Positions 13,461-19,344 of a stretch of DNA of 64,000 nucleotides are shown one piece after another. A model generated the notes under the pieces. It worked only from the letters and a program-made list of their open reading frames with translations. It did not search any database and was not told where the DNA came from. This DNA is from Saccharospirillaceae bacterium (GTDB taxonomy: Bacteria > Pseudomonadota > Gammaproteobacteria > Pseudomonadales > Natronospirillaceae), in contig SKIB01000027.1 of the NCBI GenBank assembly GCA_007116635.1, positions 1-64,000 of the forward strand, given 5' to 3'. The translations under genes and the position numbers were made by a program. The stretch's first letter is position 1, and every line of letters begins with the position of its first letter.

Positions 13461-15974
13461 TTAGTGCTTGGCAGTAACGGACTCCAGTTGCCAGATGCGC
13501 TCCACATAGTCAGAGATGGAGCGGTCAGAACTGAACTTGCCCATACGTGCCGTGTTGATGATGGCTTTCTTCACCCAGAGTTCTTGATCTTTATACCATT
13601 CATCGGCCTGTTGCTGCGCTTTGTAATAACCATCAAAATCCGCAAGAACCTTGTAAGGATCGCAGTGAATCAGGTTGTTACGCAGGTCATTCAATGCACC
13701 AGGGTTATCTGGCGTAAAGTAGGGGGTGTCGAGCCAATCAATGATGGACTTTAACTTGCTGTTTTGCTCATAGAGATTATAGGGCTGATAGCCATGGTTG
13801 TTGAGCTCTTTCACTTCGTCCACGGTTAGGCCAAAGATTAGGCAGTTTTCTGCACCTACTTCTTCAGCAATCTCGATGTTTGCGCCGTCCATGGTGCCAA
13901 TGGTGATGGCGCCATTGAGTGCTAACTTCATGTTGCCTGTACCCGAAGCTTCTTTACCAGCTGTGGATATTTGCTCAGACAGATCGGCGGCAGGTATCAT
14001 CTTTTCCGCAAGACTGACGCGGTAATTGGGCAGGAACACCACCTTCATTTTGTCACCCACTCGTGGGTCGTTGTTGATGATGTCGCCAACCTTGTTGATG
14101 GCGTAGATGATTTGCTTGGCCAGATGGTAGCCTGGCGCAGCCTTGGCACCAAAGAGATACACGCGCGGCACAAAGTCCTGCTTAGGGTTGGCCAGAATAT
14201 CTTGATAGCGAGCAAGAATGTTGAGCAGACTGAGGTGCTGGCGTTTGTATTCATGCAAGCGTTTGATTTGAATGTCAAACAGGGCGTCAGGGCTTACCTT
14301 AATGCCAGTCAGCTCTTGTATCTCTGTGGCTAACTTGACCTTATTGTTACGTTTGATACTGGCATATTCTTTACGGAACTCAGGGTTGTCGGCCTGCTTT
14401 TCCAGCTCTTTCAGTCGGTCCAGATCCACTTCCCAGCCTTCACCAATGTGCTTGGTAATCAAGGCGGCTAGCTCTGGGTTGCAGGACTTGAGCCAGCGCC
14501 TTGGTGTTACACCATTGGTCACATTGACAAATTTGTCATCTTCTAGAGCGACAAACTCTGGGAATAAGTCTTTGCGCACCAGGTCGGAGTGAACCTGGGC
14601 CACACCATTGACCTTAAAGCTGCCGATGACTGAAAGGTTGCCCATGCGCACGCGTTTGCCATGGCTTTCATCAATAATCGACAGCTTAGCAAGTTTGTCG
14701 GTATCACCTGGCCATTTGACAGCCACCTCGTTGAGCAAGAAGCGATGGTTGATTTCATAGATGATCTCCATGTGTCTTGGTAGTACACGACTCATGAGCT
14801 CGACCGACCAAGTTTCCAGCGCTTCTGGTAGCAGGGTGTGGTTAGTGTAGGCAAAGCAGGCCTTGCTGATACGCCAAGCCTTCTCCCAGCTGAAGCCCTC
14901 GACATCAATTAATATCCGCATTAACTCAGGAATGGCAATGGCCGGGTGTGTGTCATTCAATTGAATGACATTCTTCTTGGGCAACTGGTTTAGGTCGCTG
15001 TTGGTACGCTTGAAGCGGCGGAGAATATCGGCAATGGAACAAGCACAGAAAAAGTACTGCTGGATTAGGCGCAGTTCTTTGCCCTGCGGCGTTTCGTCAC
15101 TGGGATAGAGCACCTTAGAGATGGTCTCTGCTTCTAACTTCTCTTTATGAGAGTCCACATAGCCACCGTGGTTAAACACATCATAGTTGAAGTGATCTGA
15201 GGCACGAGATTCCCACAGTCTTAAGATGTTGGCGTTTTGGCCGCCATAGCCCACGATAGGAATGTCCCAAGGTACTCCCTTGATGATGCGGCCAGGGTGC
15301 CAGACTTTTTTACTATTGCCATGCATGTCATGGGTGGTCTCGACATAGCCAAAGAGTGAAACTTCTTGAATGGACTCTGGGCGGCAAATCTCCCAAGGGT
15401 TGCCAAATTCACGCCAGTCGTCCGGACGTTCTACCTGGGCACCATTGTGAAACTCTTGACGGAACAGGCCGTGCTCGTAATGAATGCCATAACCCACTGC
15501 TGGCATGTGCTTACTGGCGAGTGAGTCCAAAAAACAAGCGGCAAGTCGTCCAAGGCCACCATTACCCAAGGCCATATCGGGCTCTTGCTCAAGTAGGTCC
15601 GTTAGGTTCTGGCCTAATTCAGCCAAGCCTTTTTCAGCAACTGTGAATAAGTTGAGGTTATGTAAGTTATTAGATAGTAGTCTGCCCATCAGAAATTCAA
15701 GCGACAAATAGTTAACTGCTCGAGTATCCTGCATGGCATGTGTTTTGCGAGTGGCTGACACGCCAGCAAATACCATTTCGTTAACTGCGGCGCAGGTTGC
15801 TAGCCACCAAGCATGTTGGCTGGCTTTTTCTTCGTATGTACCCAGAGTTGAACGCAGGTGATGGATCACCATCTCTTTAAACTGCGCTGCGCTAAGTTGA
15901 TGTTGCGCATCTGCTTTATTGGCATTTTTCACCGTACTGGCTTTGCGAGCCTTGGTGCCTGTGGTATTGGTCAT
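13461..15974 (-). CDS. glgP: Glycogen/maltodextrin phosphorylase
   Basis: An 837-residue GT35 phosphorylase. Conserved blocks: NYLSLEFLMGRLLSNNL, the GNGGLGRLAACFLDS stretch, HPAIAIPELMRILID, DIQIKRLHEYKRQHL, and GTGNMKLALNGAITIGT, which carries the pyridoxal-phosphate Lys. It releases glucose-1-phosphate from alpha-1,4-glucans in the cytoplasm. I chose ATG 15974 because AAAGGGG lies 6 bases upstream; an upstream TTG (15995) would place that site inside the gene. The first ~25 residues are a Lys/Ala-rich extension (TGTKARKASTVKNANK). No other glycogen genes are in the window, so glgP and malP cannot be told apart by context. Confidence 0.93.
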   Translation of the reverse strand: MTNTTGTKARKASTVKNANKADAQHQLSAAQFKEMVIHHLRSTLGTYEEKASQHAWWLATCAAVNEMVFAGVSATRKTHAMQDTRAVNYLSLEFLMGRLLSNNLHNLNLFTVAEKGLAELGQNLTDLLEQEPDMALGNGGLGRLAACFLDSLASKHMPAVGYGIHYEHGLFRQEFHNGAQVERPDDWREFGNPWEICRPESIQEVSLFGYVETTHDMHGNSKKVWHPGRIIKGVPWDIPIVGYGGQNANILRLWESRASDHFNYDVFNHGGYVDSHKEKLEAETISKVLYPSDETPQGKELRLIQQYFFCACSIADILRRFKRTNSDLNQLPKKNVIQLNDTHPAIAIPELMRILIDVEGFSWEKAWRISKACFAYTNHTLLPEALETWSVELMSRVLPRHMEIIYEINHRFLLNEVAVKWPGDTDKLAKLSIIDESHGKRVRMGNLSVIGSFKVNGVAQVHSDLVRKDLFPEFVALEDDKFVNVTNGVTPRRWLKSCNPELAALITKHIGEGWEVDLDRLKELEKQADNPEFRKEYASIKRNNKVKLATEIQELTGIKVSPDALFDIQIKRLHEYKRQHLSLLNILARYQDILANPKQDFVPRVYLFGAKAAPGYHLAKQIIYAINKVGDIINNDPRVGDKMKVVFLPNYRVSLAEKMIPAADLSEQISTAGKEASGTGNMKLALNGAITIGTMDGANIEIAEEVGAENCLIFGLTVDEVKELNNHGYQPYNLYEQNSKLKSIIDWLDTPYFTPDNPGALNDLRNNLIHCDPYKVLADFDGYYKAQQQADEWYKDQELWVKKAIINTARMGKFSSDRSISDYVERIWQLESVTAKH

Positions 15975-16095
15975 GAGTATCCCCTTTGGAAGCAAGGTTT
16001 CAATGAGTTATTGTATTGCTACCCTCTATGGGCTGTAGCAAAGAACCCAGCAAGTATAGAATGTAATTGTGACATAATTCAAAAAAAAGCGTGAA

Positions 16096-17496
16096 TCAGT
16101 CGATTGCGCACTGGTAATTTAAATCTTGCTTGATCAGGATCAGACTTTTGCTGGTTAACTTTAGTTCTGTTGTTGCTTGCCACCGGCCGATGGTTTGAAA
16201 GTCCCGATCAACGGCCTGCCACTGACTGCCAGTTGGTAGTACCAATCTTTGTTCCTTAGGCCCAAGGTTAATGGCAAGGCTAAGGCTGTGTGCTCTTGGT
16301 TCAGAGTGGCAATAGCTGAAGAGCCACAGCTGTTGCTCCTGTTGGCCATTAAGCACCCAAGGGCTGGCGACTTGCTGCCACAGCAGTGTGGCGTGCCAGT
16401 CGGCCTTGGGTTGCCAGTCCTGATCCAGTAGTCCGTAGCTCGCCCCCTTTAGGGTTTGGCGATACAGCCGGTGCTGACTTTGGCTGGCCAGTGCCAACTG
16501 AGTTAGCCACCACAGTCCTTGTTCGTAGCTGCCGTCTAACCCAGGATCGCCGCCACATTGGGCTGGGCCGATTTCTGTGAGCCATTGTCTGCTGGTGTCG
16601 GGCAGGCTGCTCTGTTGCCTGTGCCACTGTTGCCAGTTGATGTTCGACAGCAAGTATTGGGCGCTGCTGGCCTGACTGCGTAAGCCGCATCGGAAGGACT
16701 GACTTGGGTAATAGTGCCAGCTAATGTCCTTGGTGGTGCTCTGCTGCTGGAAGCCTGGGGTGCTGCCTGCCCATTGCCAGTTGACCTCGCCAATCCAAGG
16801 CCAAAAGGCCGAACCCTTGGCCAGTAGTTTGCCCTCAATTTGATGCTGGCTTAGGCTATCGGTGGTCTGTTGCCAATGAGCTAGGTATTGGCTGGCATTG
16901 AGTTGATGTTGCGGGCCAAAAAAGAAAAAGTGACCATTGGCTTCGTTGCCCAATTCAAAGTGCAGTTGGTTTTGCGTGAAGTTCGGGCTCCATTGCATCA
17001 ACAAGGCAATTAGATCCTTGGCTAGCCAAGGGCTTTGGCGGTGCATGGGGCCTAGTCCAAGATTAAATAGCAGATCACCCTGGGCGCTTTGGCTAAGTAG
17101 CACCAGTTGTTGCCAGTCTTGCTCGGTTAGCTGACTGTTAAACCCCTCTGGTTTGGCATTGTTCCCAAGATACAGGCGATCAGCCTCTGTACCCCCTAGT
17201 CGGATGTGCACTGGTGCCAAGGCTGCTAAGGCTTGGCGTAAGTTAGCATCATCAAGCCTCAATAAGGCGGGCTGTACGGCCTCGCCCACGGCAGATTCTT
17301 GCCACCAATAGCCGCCCGTCACCAAACTGGTGTCAATGGAAATGCCTAAAAATGGCCAATCCGTTTGATGAATGATCCCCTTGGGTGCCAGCAGTTCGAT
17401 TGCTTTGCCAGATGGCCATATTGTCTGGGCAGAGGCTAACATAAGAGCTAATATAAGCGTCAGGAAGGGCAAGCAATAAAAATGAGTTCTAAGCAT
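16096..17496 (-). CDS. Secreted GH79 heparanase-like glycoside hydrolase
   Basis: A 466-residue protein with a signal peptide (~1-24, LASAQT). It resembles the heparanase branch of family GH79: HIRLGGTEADRLYL early, HFELGNEANGHFF with the likely acid/base Glu185 after Asn, SWHYYPSQS, WLTEIGPAQCGG with the likely nucleophile Glu308, then a TIM-barrel end (LYRQTLKGASYGLLDQDW) and a C-terminal beta-sandwich. The two Glu are 123 residues apart, close to the 118 of human heparanase (Glu225, Glu343). It would cleave uronic-acid-containing polysaccharides outside the cell. It stands alone, head-to-tail with glgP; no transporter or lyase genes are nearby. Substrate unproven. Confidence 0.8.
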   Translation of the reverse strand: MLRTHFYCLPFLTLILALMLASAQTIWPSGKAIELLAPKGIIHQTDWPFLGISIDTSLVTGGYWWQESAVGEAVQPALLRLDDANLRQALAALAPVHIRLGGTEADRLYLGNNAKPEGFNSQLTEQDWQQLVLLSQSAQGDLLFNLGLGPMHRQSPWLAKDLIALLMQWSPNFTQNQLHFELGNEANGHFFFFGPQHQLNASQYLAHWQQTTDSLSQHQIEGKLLAKGSAFWPWIGEVNWQWAGSTPGFQQQSTTKDISWHYYPSQSFRCGLRSQASSAQYLLSNINWQQWHRQQSSLPDTSRQWLTEIGPAQCGGDPGLDGSYEQGLWWLTQLALASQSQHRLYRQTLKGASYGLLDQDWQPKADWHATLLWQQVASPWVLNGQQEQQLWLFSYCHSEPRAHSLSLAINLGPKEQRLVLPTGSQWQAVDRDFQTIGRWQATTELKLTSKSLILIKQDLNYQCAID

Positions 17497-17609
17497 CTAA
17501 ATGTTTTAGTCAGGGTTTGAATTTAGTTACTATAGTCCATACTAGATGACAAATTGATCACAAAGCACCAAGACGGTTTTCTTGGTCGTTGCTGTTAAGG
17601 AGCACCCCT

Positions 17610-18365
17610 ATGTCTGATACTTTGGCGATTATTGGTGGCACTGGCCTGACCCGCCTGCCCGGACTGCGTATCCGCGATGCCCATGATATTCAAACGCCCT
17701 ATGGCTCTCCATCTGGCTCGGTGTTAGAAGGTGTTTTTGGTGACAGTCGAATTTTCTTTTTAGCTCGCCATGGACACCCACATCGAATTCCGCCTCATCA
17801 GGTGAATTATCGCGCCAATATTTGGGCTTTGCGCCACATTGGTGCTCGTGACATCATTTCGGTCAATGCCGTGGGTGGTATCAACCGCTCCATGCCAACC
17901 AGAGCACTGTGCATCCCTGACCAAATTATTGATTATACCCATGGCCGTGAGTCTACCTTCTATGATGGTGTGGACAGCCCTGTTGTGCATGTGGATTTTA
18001 GTTATCCTTACACTGAGGTTCTACGCTCCCAGCTATTGGTTGCGGCCAAAGCCGTTAAAGTACCAGTCGTTAATGGTGGTGTTTACGGTGCCACTCAGGG
18101 CCCAAGGTTGGAGACGGCAGCAGAGATTGCCCGCATGGAGCGTGATGGCTGTGACATCGTGGGCATGACAGGCATGCCAGAGGCGGTGTTGGCTCGTGAA
18201 GCCAAGATGGGCTACGCCTGTTTATCCTTAGTGGTGAATCCTGCGGCGGGCAAGGCAAAGGGTGTCATTACCATTAAAGAAATTGATCGTGCTCTTGAAG
18301 GCGGCATGGAAGACATTCGTAAAATTCTTGTTAGCTATGTTGAGCGATTTGTGGTGGGTCACTAA
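17610..18365 (+). CDS. S-methyl-5'-thioinosine phosphorylase
   Basis: A 251-residue trimeric PNP/MTAP-family enzyme. Phosphate-binding and active-site blocks: IIGGTGL, ARHGHPHRIPPHQVNYRAN, and VYGATQGPRLETAAEI. The base-specificity loop reads LVVNPAAGK, whereas adenosine-type MTAP has an Asp-containing DYD stretch there. Loss of that Asp is the mark of the Pseudomonas-type methylthioinosine phosphorylase, which acts on the deaminated form of methylthioadenosine and feeds hypoxanthine salvage. AAGGAG (17597-17602) fixes ATG 17610. A 7-bp hairpin (17567-17586) lies in the leader. A terminator follows the stop. Confidence 0.88.
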   Translation: MSDTLAIIGGTGLTRLPGLRIRDAHDIQTPYGSPSGSVLEGVFGDSRIFFLARHGHPHRIPPHQVNYRANIWALRHIGARDIISVNAVGGINRSMPTRALCIPDQIIDYTHGRESTFYDGVDSPVVHVDFSYPYTEVLRSQLLVAAKAVKVPVVNGGVYGATQGPRLETAAEIARMERDGCDIVGMTGMPEAVLAREAKMGYACLSLVVNPAAGKAKGVITIKEIDRALEGGMEDIRKILVSYVERFVVGH

Positions 18366-18395: not shown

Positions 18396-18419
18396 AACCA
18401 GCCCGAAGGCTGGTTTTTT
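18396..18419 (+). terminator. Intrinsic terminator after the methylthioinosine phosphorylase gene
   Basis: Stem AACCAGCC (18396-18403) and GGCTGGTT (18408-18415) with the stable CGAA tetraloop, then a T run. Its T tract overlaps the last bases of the convergent DHH gene. Confidence 0.85.
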
Positions 18420-19344
18420 AGATGTCTTTAACAAGCTGGATCAAGCGTTCTTGAATGTTATCTGCCTGCTCATTGGCAATCTGGCAAGTGCCTGCAGCAT
18501 CATGGCCACCACCGCCATAGCTTAGACAGATTTCGCCAATTTTGGCCGTACTGCTGCGGTCCAAAATAGACTTGCCAAGGGCAAATACAGTGTTCTGTTT
18601 CTGCAGGCCCCAGAGCCTATGTATGGAGATATTGCACTGTGGGAATAGGGCATAGATCATAAACCTGTTGGTTGGCCAAATCGTCTCTTCTTGTTGCAGG
18701 TTTACCAACACCACATTGTTGAAGGTTTGGCTGCAACGGATGAGTTGCTCAAAGGCCTTGGTTTCATGTTCTCGGTAAAGATTGATCCGCTCTTGGACAT
18801 CTGGTAGCTGTAGAATTTCATCGATATCCAGTTTGCGGCAGGCATCAATGAGTTGCATCATTAACTGGTAGTTTGATATTCGAAAATCTCGGAAGCGGCC
18901 CAGGCCGGTGCGGGCATCCATCAAGAAATTCAATAACACCCAGCCTTCGGGGTTTAGGACTTCTTCACGACTAAACTGGGCTGAGTCGCTCTTGTCGACC
19001 GCCTGCATCAATTCTTGGCTGAAATTACTTAAGCGGCCATTGCTGCCAAAGTAATTATAGACGACTCGGGCAGCAGAAGGAGCATCAGGATCAATAATAT
19101 GATTTGGCTGAGGCCCGGTTCGTACTGTCTCGCTCTGATGGTGATCGAATGCGAGATAAGCTCCTTCGGTGTAAGGTAGATTGGTGGTTATGTCACGTGG
19201 CGTTACTTCAATTTTTCCGTCCTGCATATCTTTGGGATGGACAAATAAAATGTCATCAATGATATCAAGCTCTTTGAGTAAGGCAGCACAGACCAGTCCG
19301 TCGAAGTCACTCCTGGTTACTAAGCGGTATTTTTCAGTCATCAC
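18418..19344 (-). CDS. DHH-family phosphoesterase (exopolyphosphatase-like)
   Basis: A 308-residue cytoplasmic protein. The DHH domain begins VTRSDFDGLVCAALL (metal-binding DFDG) and includes YLAFDHHQSE, the DHH motif itself. The DHHA1 domain ends with SYGGGGHDAAGTCQI. Members of this superfamily cleave phosphodiester or phosphoanhydride bonds in short RNAs, cyclic dinucleotides or polyphosphate. The particular substrate cannot be told from sequence. There is no membrane segment and no PAS or GGDEF domain, so it is not GdpP. It is a single gene, upstream of which 94 bases separate it from the transpeptidase gene on the same strand. Confidence 0.88.
   Translation of the reverse strand: MMTEKYRLVTRSDFDGLVCAALLKELDIIDDILFVHPKDMQDGKIEVTPRDITTNLPYTEGAYLAFDHHQSETVRTGPQPNHIIDPDAPSAARVVYNYFGSNGRLSNFSQELMQAVDKSDSAQFSREEVLNPEGWVLLNFLMDARTGLGRFRDFRISNYQLMMQLIDACRKLDIDEILQLPDVQERINLYREHETKAFEQLIRCSQTFNNVVLVNLQQEETIWPTNRFMIYALFPQCNISIHRLWGLQKQNTVFALGKSILDRSSTAKIGEICLSYGGGGHDAAGTCQIANEQADNIQERLIQLVKDI

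Follow-up and report, generated by a model that had tools for sequence, protein, structure and literature searches.

Heparanase is best known in animals, where it cuts heparan sulfate. The residues forming the -1 subsite for glucuronate (GlcA) in the human enzyme, namely D62, T97, N224, E225, E343, G350, and Y391, are listed in excerpts of PMC9500389, and the role of Q383 in the same subsite is described in an excerpt of PMC10785800. Contacts with heparan sulfate are made by K159, R272, R303, N64, Q270, G389, and G349 (PMC6892829, in excerpt). The linker excised from heparanase comprises 48 residues, 110-157, and the Burkholderia and Acidobacterium GH79 enzymes carry Glu and Asn at human positions 62 and 97 (both from excerpts of PMC9500389). 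The phylogeny presented in PMC12406646 covers animal HPSE1 and HPSE2, and the words "bacteria" and "prokaryot" are absent from the excerpted text of that paper. No description of the bacterial heparanase-like clade considered here was found among the titles and abstracts of the matches listed in the open-licence PMC literature, and the clade is apparently uncharacterised.

The gene under study lies in a window of 64,000 nucleotides, which is the whole stretch of DNA that was analysed. Its frame on the minus strand starts with ATG, encodes a protein of 466 residues with the N-terminus MLRTHFYC, and contains zero internal stops. The reading favoured here, with fair confidence, is that of a GH79 retaining beta-glucuronidase acting on a substrate other than heparan sulfate. 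The gene and its flanking genes are as follows:

16096..17496, minus strand: heparanase-type GH79 coding sequence, 466 aa, from open reading frame, homology, and fold match
13461..15995, minus strand: glycogen phosphorylase (PF00343, by Pfam), a neighbour 100 bp downstream, separate from the enzyme
17589..18365, plus strand: divergent S-methyl-5'-thioinosine/thioadenosine phosphorylase, the upstream neighbour, by Pfam and NCBIfam

Membership of the protein in GH79 is practically certain. Taken alone, the sequence scores 15.5 bits (E 0.0091) against the Pfam GH79 family, below the cut-off of 23.1 bits, and is matched by none of the NCBIfam models at E <= 1; consequently, automatic annotation may miss this gene. 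A phmmer search of the PDB with the same sequence reaches human heparanase at 1.3e-11, and the Burkholderia heparanase chains are absent from its 20 matches up to E 10. With a profile (A2) built from the window protein and 44 relatives (45 rows), the E-values are 8e-69 for human heparanase, 5.2e-55 for leech hyaluronidase, about 1e-18 for Burkholderia heparanase, and 1.5e-17 for Acidobacterium beta-glucuronidase, and GH79 catalytic chains span 8e-69 to 2.4e-16. Pfam PF03662 (GH79) is matched at E <= 0.1 by all 45 of the 45 profile members. Pfam GH39 touches 4/45 relatives (best 7.4e-4), and the window protein is not among them.

The AlphaFold model built with A2 has a mean pLDDT of 83.8 and a pTM of 0.84, with values below 50 only at residues 426-466. 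Foldseek places proheparanase, leech hyaluronidase, Burkholderia heparanase, and Acidobacterium GH79 at the top ranks. The VIA-align Z scores are 32.6 for leech hyaluronidase (7eyo), 32.3 for proheparanase (5la4), and 31.9 for the best Acidobacterium GH79 row, these three being tied, followed by 30.7 for Burkholderia heparanase and 27.6 for a Fusarium glucuronidase. GH79 whole chains span 29.6-32.6, and the human 50-kDa subunit alone gives 26.3-27.3. Assignment to GH30 or GH51 was rejected on the gap in Z, since the first GH30 row scores 24.4 and the first GH51 row 24.3 versus 32.6 for the best GH79 chain. No GH39 chain occurs among the 50 fold rows listed, and GH39 was judged by sequence profile, not by fold. 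According to the model, the protein is a (beta/alpha)8 barrel with a beta-sandwich, of the heparanase/leech-hyaluronidase type of GH79. The profile match to human heparanase and the best fold scores, which fall on GH79 chains, bear out the heparanase-type GH79 identity proposed in the first-pass annotation.

Residue conservation was read from an alignment of 81 rows, consisting of the window protein and the best 80 of 90 confirmed loci. An alignment of the GH79 matches from genomes of the family and order led to these loci, which were sought with the motifs WHYYPTQ and GPANAFWP, so that the conservation of both motifs is biased; the catalytic glutamates lie outside them. Five of the 80 loci were recovered by hand and are counted in the 81-row residue, export, and departure tallies. 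The following active-site features were placed by alignment:

16933..16956, minus strand: acid/base motif ELGNEANG, residues 181-188, with the E185 codon at 16942-16944
16549..16584, minus strand: nucleophile motif WLTEIGPAQCGG, residues 305-316, with the E308 codon at 16573-16575
16435..16461, minus strand: RQ...Y, residues 346-354, with Q347 equivalent to human Q383 and Y354 to human Y391 (-1 subsite)

The segments ELGNE185A and WLTE308IGPAQCGG align with human E225 and E343, and both N184-E185 and E308 are kept in 81/81 rows, the window included. The catalytic glutamates thus sit in heparanase-like motifs, as initially claimed, and neither of the two findings named in advance as speaking against that claim, an assignment to another family such as GH30 or GH39 or the loss of a catalytic Glu in an alignment, was obtained. 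Human D62, N224, E225, E343, G350, Q383, and Y391 correspond to D55, N184, E185, E308, G315, Q347, and Y354 in the window protein; the D62 column is kept in 80/81 rows (one gap) and the other six columns in 81/81. Human T97 corresponds to T103, in a column with Thr in 17 rows and Ser in 64. All of the GlcA-binding residues D62, T97, N224, E225, E343, G350, and Y391 are therefore identical in the window protein, and G349 is replaced by Cys. With Asp55 and Thr103 instead of the Glu and Asn of the Burkholderia and Acidobacterium enzymes, the window protein is animal-like at these two positions. The enzyme is likely to be catalytically active.

The part of the groove that grips heparan sulfate in the human enzyme is different. 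The basic contacts K159, R272, and R303 correspond to E117, N239, and Q275, the hydrogen-bond contacts N64, Q270, and G389 to S57, E237, and A352, and G349 to C314. The Q270 column holds Glu in 81/81 rows and the G389 column Gly in 64/81 (Ala in the window). The R303 column, in a gappy loop, holds Arg in 66/81 rows (Gln in the window), which was counted against a non-heparan reading. The loss of basic contacts and the gain of acids in the groove of the window protein argue against sulfated heparan, and heparan sulfate is an unlikely substrate because K159, R272, and Q270 are replaced. The window enzyme is probably not specific for heparan sulfate. The interpretation in the first-pass annotation consequently holds for a secreted, single-gene, heparanase-type GH79 enzyme, while heparan sulfate, listed there among the substrates to be assayed, is disfavoured by the replaced contacts.

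Two further features concern loops:

17134..17190, minus strand: short loop at the site of the proheparanase 6-kDa linker, residues 103-121, by alignment
17251..17325, minus strand: clade-specific insertion with GGxWW, residues 58-82, by alignments

The distance from G102 to S121 is 19 positions in the window protein, and that from G96 to S163 in human heparanase is 67. Subtracting the 48 residues of the excised linker leaves 19, so that the loop is as long as that of the mature human enzyme. With such a short loop, the bacterial enzyme would not depend on a maturation cut, and the loop is compatible with an endo mode of action. From D55 to L86, the window protein has 31 positions versus 18 (D62 to L80) in human heparanase, which amounts to an insertion of 13 positions. 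Within it lies the GGxWW motif (across the 45 rows, W65 is invariant and W64 almost invariant), and the insertion may shape the groove at its -2 end or close it there. Closure of one groove end could suit an exo-acting beta-glucuronidase, one that splits terminal GlcA off oligosaccharides or glucuronides. The Acidobacterium GH79 enzyme, which acts in this way, is similarly close in fold (Z up to 31.9). However, the 40-residue loop that closes the Acidobacterium pocket (PMC9500389, in excerpt) is short in the window protein, and exo action of this kind is considered unlikely.

The relatives are spread more widely than the animals and host-associated bacteria named in the first-pass annotation as the best-known sources of GH79 heparanases, a description that proves too narrow. 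Marinomonas and Gilvimarinus are marine genera. By record title, the 80 loci belong chiefly to Gammaproteobacteria (Marinomonas, Gilvimarinus) and then to Bdellovibrionota, with further loci from Myxococcota, one Desulfobacterales MAG, two Spirochaetota, and others; the genera of the clade also include Saccharospirillum, Reinekea, Salinibius, Gynuella, Halioglobus, Parahaliea, and Spongiibacter, along with Cellvibrionaceae. A GH79 match was obtained in 14 of 57 genomes, namely the window's own, 12/21 other members of its family, and 1/35 others in the order. This patchy presence among the family relatives indicates that the GH79 gene is not essential there, a point counted against the best explanation. 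In an order-wide sample, the clade profile matched 38/390 genomes, one of them by a fragment only; in a phylum-wide sample, Pfam GH79 at E <= 0.001 matched 6/299 genomes, a threshold at which the window's own gene is missed. Beside its usual copy, one genome of the order (G483) has another that is more divergent (3.1e-84), and in G590 a short GH79 fragment with a stop is the only copy.

Export of the window protein and its cysteines were considered together, based on the following features:

17428..17496, minus strand: signal peptide, residues 1-23, with predicted cleavage between ASA and Q, from sequence and hydropathy
16687..16689, minus strand: C270, from row counts, possible partner of C314
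16555..16557, minus strand: C314, where human heparanase has G349, with Cys in 78/81 rows
16309..16311, minus strand: C396, aligned with human C437, from alignment and row counts
16108..16110, minus strand: C463, the C-terminal Cys, from sequence, putative partner of C396

A hydrophobic run at about residues 6-20 is followed by A21-S22-A23 and cleavage before Q24, with no lipobox cysteine and a hydropathy score of 2.15. By sequence and the hydropathy rule, the n-, h-, and c-regions with AxA typical of a signal peptidase I substrate are present, as the earlier description of a clear signal peptide on a secreted enzyme had stated, and export is very likely. Human C437 is presumably disulfide-bonded near the C-terminus, and the window protein probably contains two disulfides, with C270-C314 and C396-C463 as putative pairs.

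Rows of the alignment were called exported when the best 17-residue hydropathy mean was at least 1.9, or 1.0 with a lipobox, and borderline at 1.3-1.9. This gives 20 exported rows (window included), 7 borderline, and 54 signal-less, two of the last (L076, L095) having N-termini too short for judging. C270 is present in 19/20 exported, 4/7 borderline, and 0/54 signal-less rows, and C396 in 18/20, 4/7, and 0/54, respectively. All Gilvimarinus and Parahaliea rows are signal-less, as are all Marinomonas rows except L061 (borderline); by the hydropathy rule, the signal-less rows have neither a signal peptide nor a transmembrane segment (for example, L040, L043, L047, L067, and L075). The pattern suggests that these 54 of the 81 rows, which are free of C270 and C396, represent cytoplasmic heparanase-like enzymes.

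A quick tree was made from 69 rows, with 16 relatives (mostly near-duplicate Marinomonas) and the outgroup candidates L108, L109, and L110 left out. On this tree, with borderline rows also left out, the export label needs one change; the join between Spirochaetota and signal-less Gammaproteobacteria was flagged as a meeting of long branches, and the changes are possibly two. Since one change suffices, the label represents one coherent shift and not repeated evidence, and the link between cysteines and export was rejected as independent evidence. Both the window protein and HPSE form long branches. HPSE and the sole outgroup, also a long branch, meet in the tree, and no origin of animal heparanase from this clade is read from it. 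At two Spirochaetota loci (L088:6937-9425 and L076:2439-4894), the GH79 frame, which is signal-less, shares bases with the end of a glycosyltransferase-like gene. In L088, this gene matches Pfam PF13528 above the cut-off and the NCBIfam MJ1255/VC2487 type at 95 bits, below the cut-off, and the gene in L076 is homologous to it. This overlap was counted against the best explanation. Features that mark the clade are the GGxWW insertion, the sequence AQCGG next to the nucleophile, and a Glu in place of Gln270. A broader proposal, held with somewhat less than even confidence, is that the window enzyme represents the exported branch of an undescribed clade, whose branch in one Gammaproteobacteria lineage and two Spirochaetota, free of signal peptide, C270, and C396, would be cytoplasmic and would act on an unrecognised intracellular GlcA-containing glycan.

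The window copy is fast-evolving. It is 34% identical to its syntenic Salinibius ortholog, versus 73% for the flanking glgP and 68% for the thioinosine phosphorylase; in four other pairs, GH79 identity is 51-85% versus 67-87% for PrlC. It also differs at 20 of 78 nearly invariant positions, the highest count in the 81 rows, which was counted against the best explanation. These two observations, together with a shortened C-terminal part and the low pLDDT at 426-466, could indicate a decaying copy, in which selection in this lineage has relaxed and the protein is poorly active. However, the frame is intact, the catalytic set is untouched, the -1-subsite residues and four cysteines are kept, and other exported members depart nearly as much (18/73, 18/71, and 17/74 positions), and decay is regarded as improbable.

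As proposed earlier, the GH79 gene is a single gene beside glycogen phosphorylase, and by Pfam, no lyase, sulfatase, or transporter was found among the five neighbouring window genes scanned. The arrangement of GH79 and glgP with a divergent thioinosine phosphorylase occurs in the window and in Salinibius; the GH79 and glgP frames overlap in Salinibius and are 100 bp apart on the same strand in the window. A GH79-glgP operon was rejected, because a promoter-like site lies between the two genes in the window (3 such sites in the region versus 1.1 expected) and the glgP cluster has just two members in the compared neighbourhoods, which corresponds to local synteny. The gene at 17589..18365 exceeds both NCBIfam cut-offs, with 371 bits for NF006599 (S-methyl-5'-thioinosine) and 279 bits for TIGR01694 (-thioadenosine). 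Between it and the divergent GH79 gene lies an inverted repeat (ACCAAGA...TCTTGGT, 17567-17586) with arms of 7 bp and a loop of 6 bases, possibly an operator or a product of chance. Farther on, window positions 18418-19344 encode a 308-aa protein with weak DHH/DHHA1 phosphoesterase matches below the cut-off and no NCBIfam match at 1e-5.

In Reinekea and Saccharospirillum, the order is prlC (divergent)-GH79-rph-yicC, the three neighbours being identified from their sequences by eye. Among family members, the GH79 gene stands among housekeeping genes at conserved places, and other genera have it at other places. Among 121 neighbour proteins tallied by Pfam family, after exclusion of 31 of 152 (including all from L032 and L045), the commonest neighbour family is the response regulator (4/121); no carbohydrate-enzyme family is found among the 25 commonest of 160, and no transporter family among the commonest neighbours of the relatives.

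The genome, estimated to be 97.3% complete, and 14 control genomes were scanned with the same single-family searches. The window genome has no match to sulfatase PF00884 (matched in 10/14 controls), heparinase II/III PF07940 (2/14), GH88 PF07470 (3/14), or UxaC PF02614 (7/14), the last being the sole uronate route searched. Dedicated glycosaminoglycan (GAG) catabolism is thus not visible in the genome at the level of these families. This bears on the possibility of a secreted scavenging endo-glucuronidase for external GAG-like polymers (hyaluronan, heparan, or chondroitin-type), like leech hyaluronidase or heparanase. The export signal, the loop equal to that of mature heparanase, and the animal GAG-acting enzymes that are the closest solved structures by sequence (tied by fold with the Acidobacterium enzyme) are in line with it. 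Against it stand the four unmatched families, the replaced K159, R272, and Q270 contacts, and the neighbours of the relatives, whose commonest families include neither transporters nor carbohydrate enzymes; such scavenging is accordingly rated unlikely.

For the favoured reading of a non-heparan substrate, the polysaccharide genes of the cell are relevant. The genome encodes a full-length UDP-glucose dehydrogenase-like protein (723 bits, just under the cut-off of 757) and WcaJ (502.7 versus a cut-off of 410.75) near Wza- and Wzc-like genes, from which it follows that the cell probably makes UDP-GlcA and an exported polysaccharide. This locus and the four unmatched catabolic families tilt the balance towards the cell's own polysaccharide over an external uronate polymer. 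The GH79 gene and the exopolysaccharide locus lie on different contigs, which was counted against the best explanation. Co-occurrence within the family was rejected as evidence, as it does not discriminate: UDP-glucose dehydrogenase at E <= 0.001 is found in 13/13 family genomes with GH79 versus 8/9 without (above the cut-off in 0/22), and WcaJ in 13/13 versus 7/9 (above the cut-off in 5/22). An exopolysaccharide of the cell or of a neighbour is proposed as the substrate tentatively.

In the proposed mechanism, the signal peptide would be cleaved, and the protein would then adopt the barrel and beta-sandwich fold, with two probable disulfides. Beta-linked GlcA would be bound at subsite -1 and cleaved by double displacement, with E308 as the nucleophile and E185 as the acid/base, while the -2/+1 side apparently does not suit sulfated heparan. 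An exopolysaccharide or envelope glycan that contains GlcA, made by the cell itself or by a neighbour, would be the most likely substrate; the enzyme would trim or release it without feeding a dedicated uronate pathway. A clade with the same glucuronate site and much of the heparan grip missing helps to separate GlcA recognition from heparan specificity, and it may supply single-chain models for which the maturation cut is unnecessary. That the gene stands alone and is kept patchily, and that many members have apparently shifted to the cytoplasm, raises the question of which bacterial glycan is cut.

Among the known systems, human heparanase HPSE (5la4, 5e8m) shares with the window protein the fold, both glutamates, the -1 GlcA site including D62 and T97, the loop length of the mature form, and C437, which aligns with C396. 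It differs in its 6-kDa linker for excision, which the window protein does not have, in K159, R272, R303, N64, Q270, and G389, all replaced in the window, in G349, which is Cys there, and in the extra GGxWW loop of the window protein; identity in the structural alignment is about 18-22%. Leech hyaluronidase (hyaluronoglucuronidase, 7eyo) has the top Z (32.6, tied with 5la4 and the best Acidobacterium row) and is the second-best molecule by profile; at 18% identity, it is likened by fold and profile, not by substrate residues. Burkholderia pseudomallei heparanase (5bwi, 7pr9) is likewise a bacterial GH79 enzyme, with a short open-groove loop, but it is matched by the profile at about 1e-18 versus 8e-69 for the human enzyme, and it has Glu and Asn where the window has Asp55 and Thr103 (loop and residues from excerpts of PMC9500389). 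Acidobacterium capsulatum beta-glucuronidase (5g0m, 3vny) shares the GH79 fold and the catalytic pair, whereas it is exo-acting and has a 40-residue pocket loop (PMC9500389, in excerpt) that is absent in the window protein.
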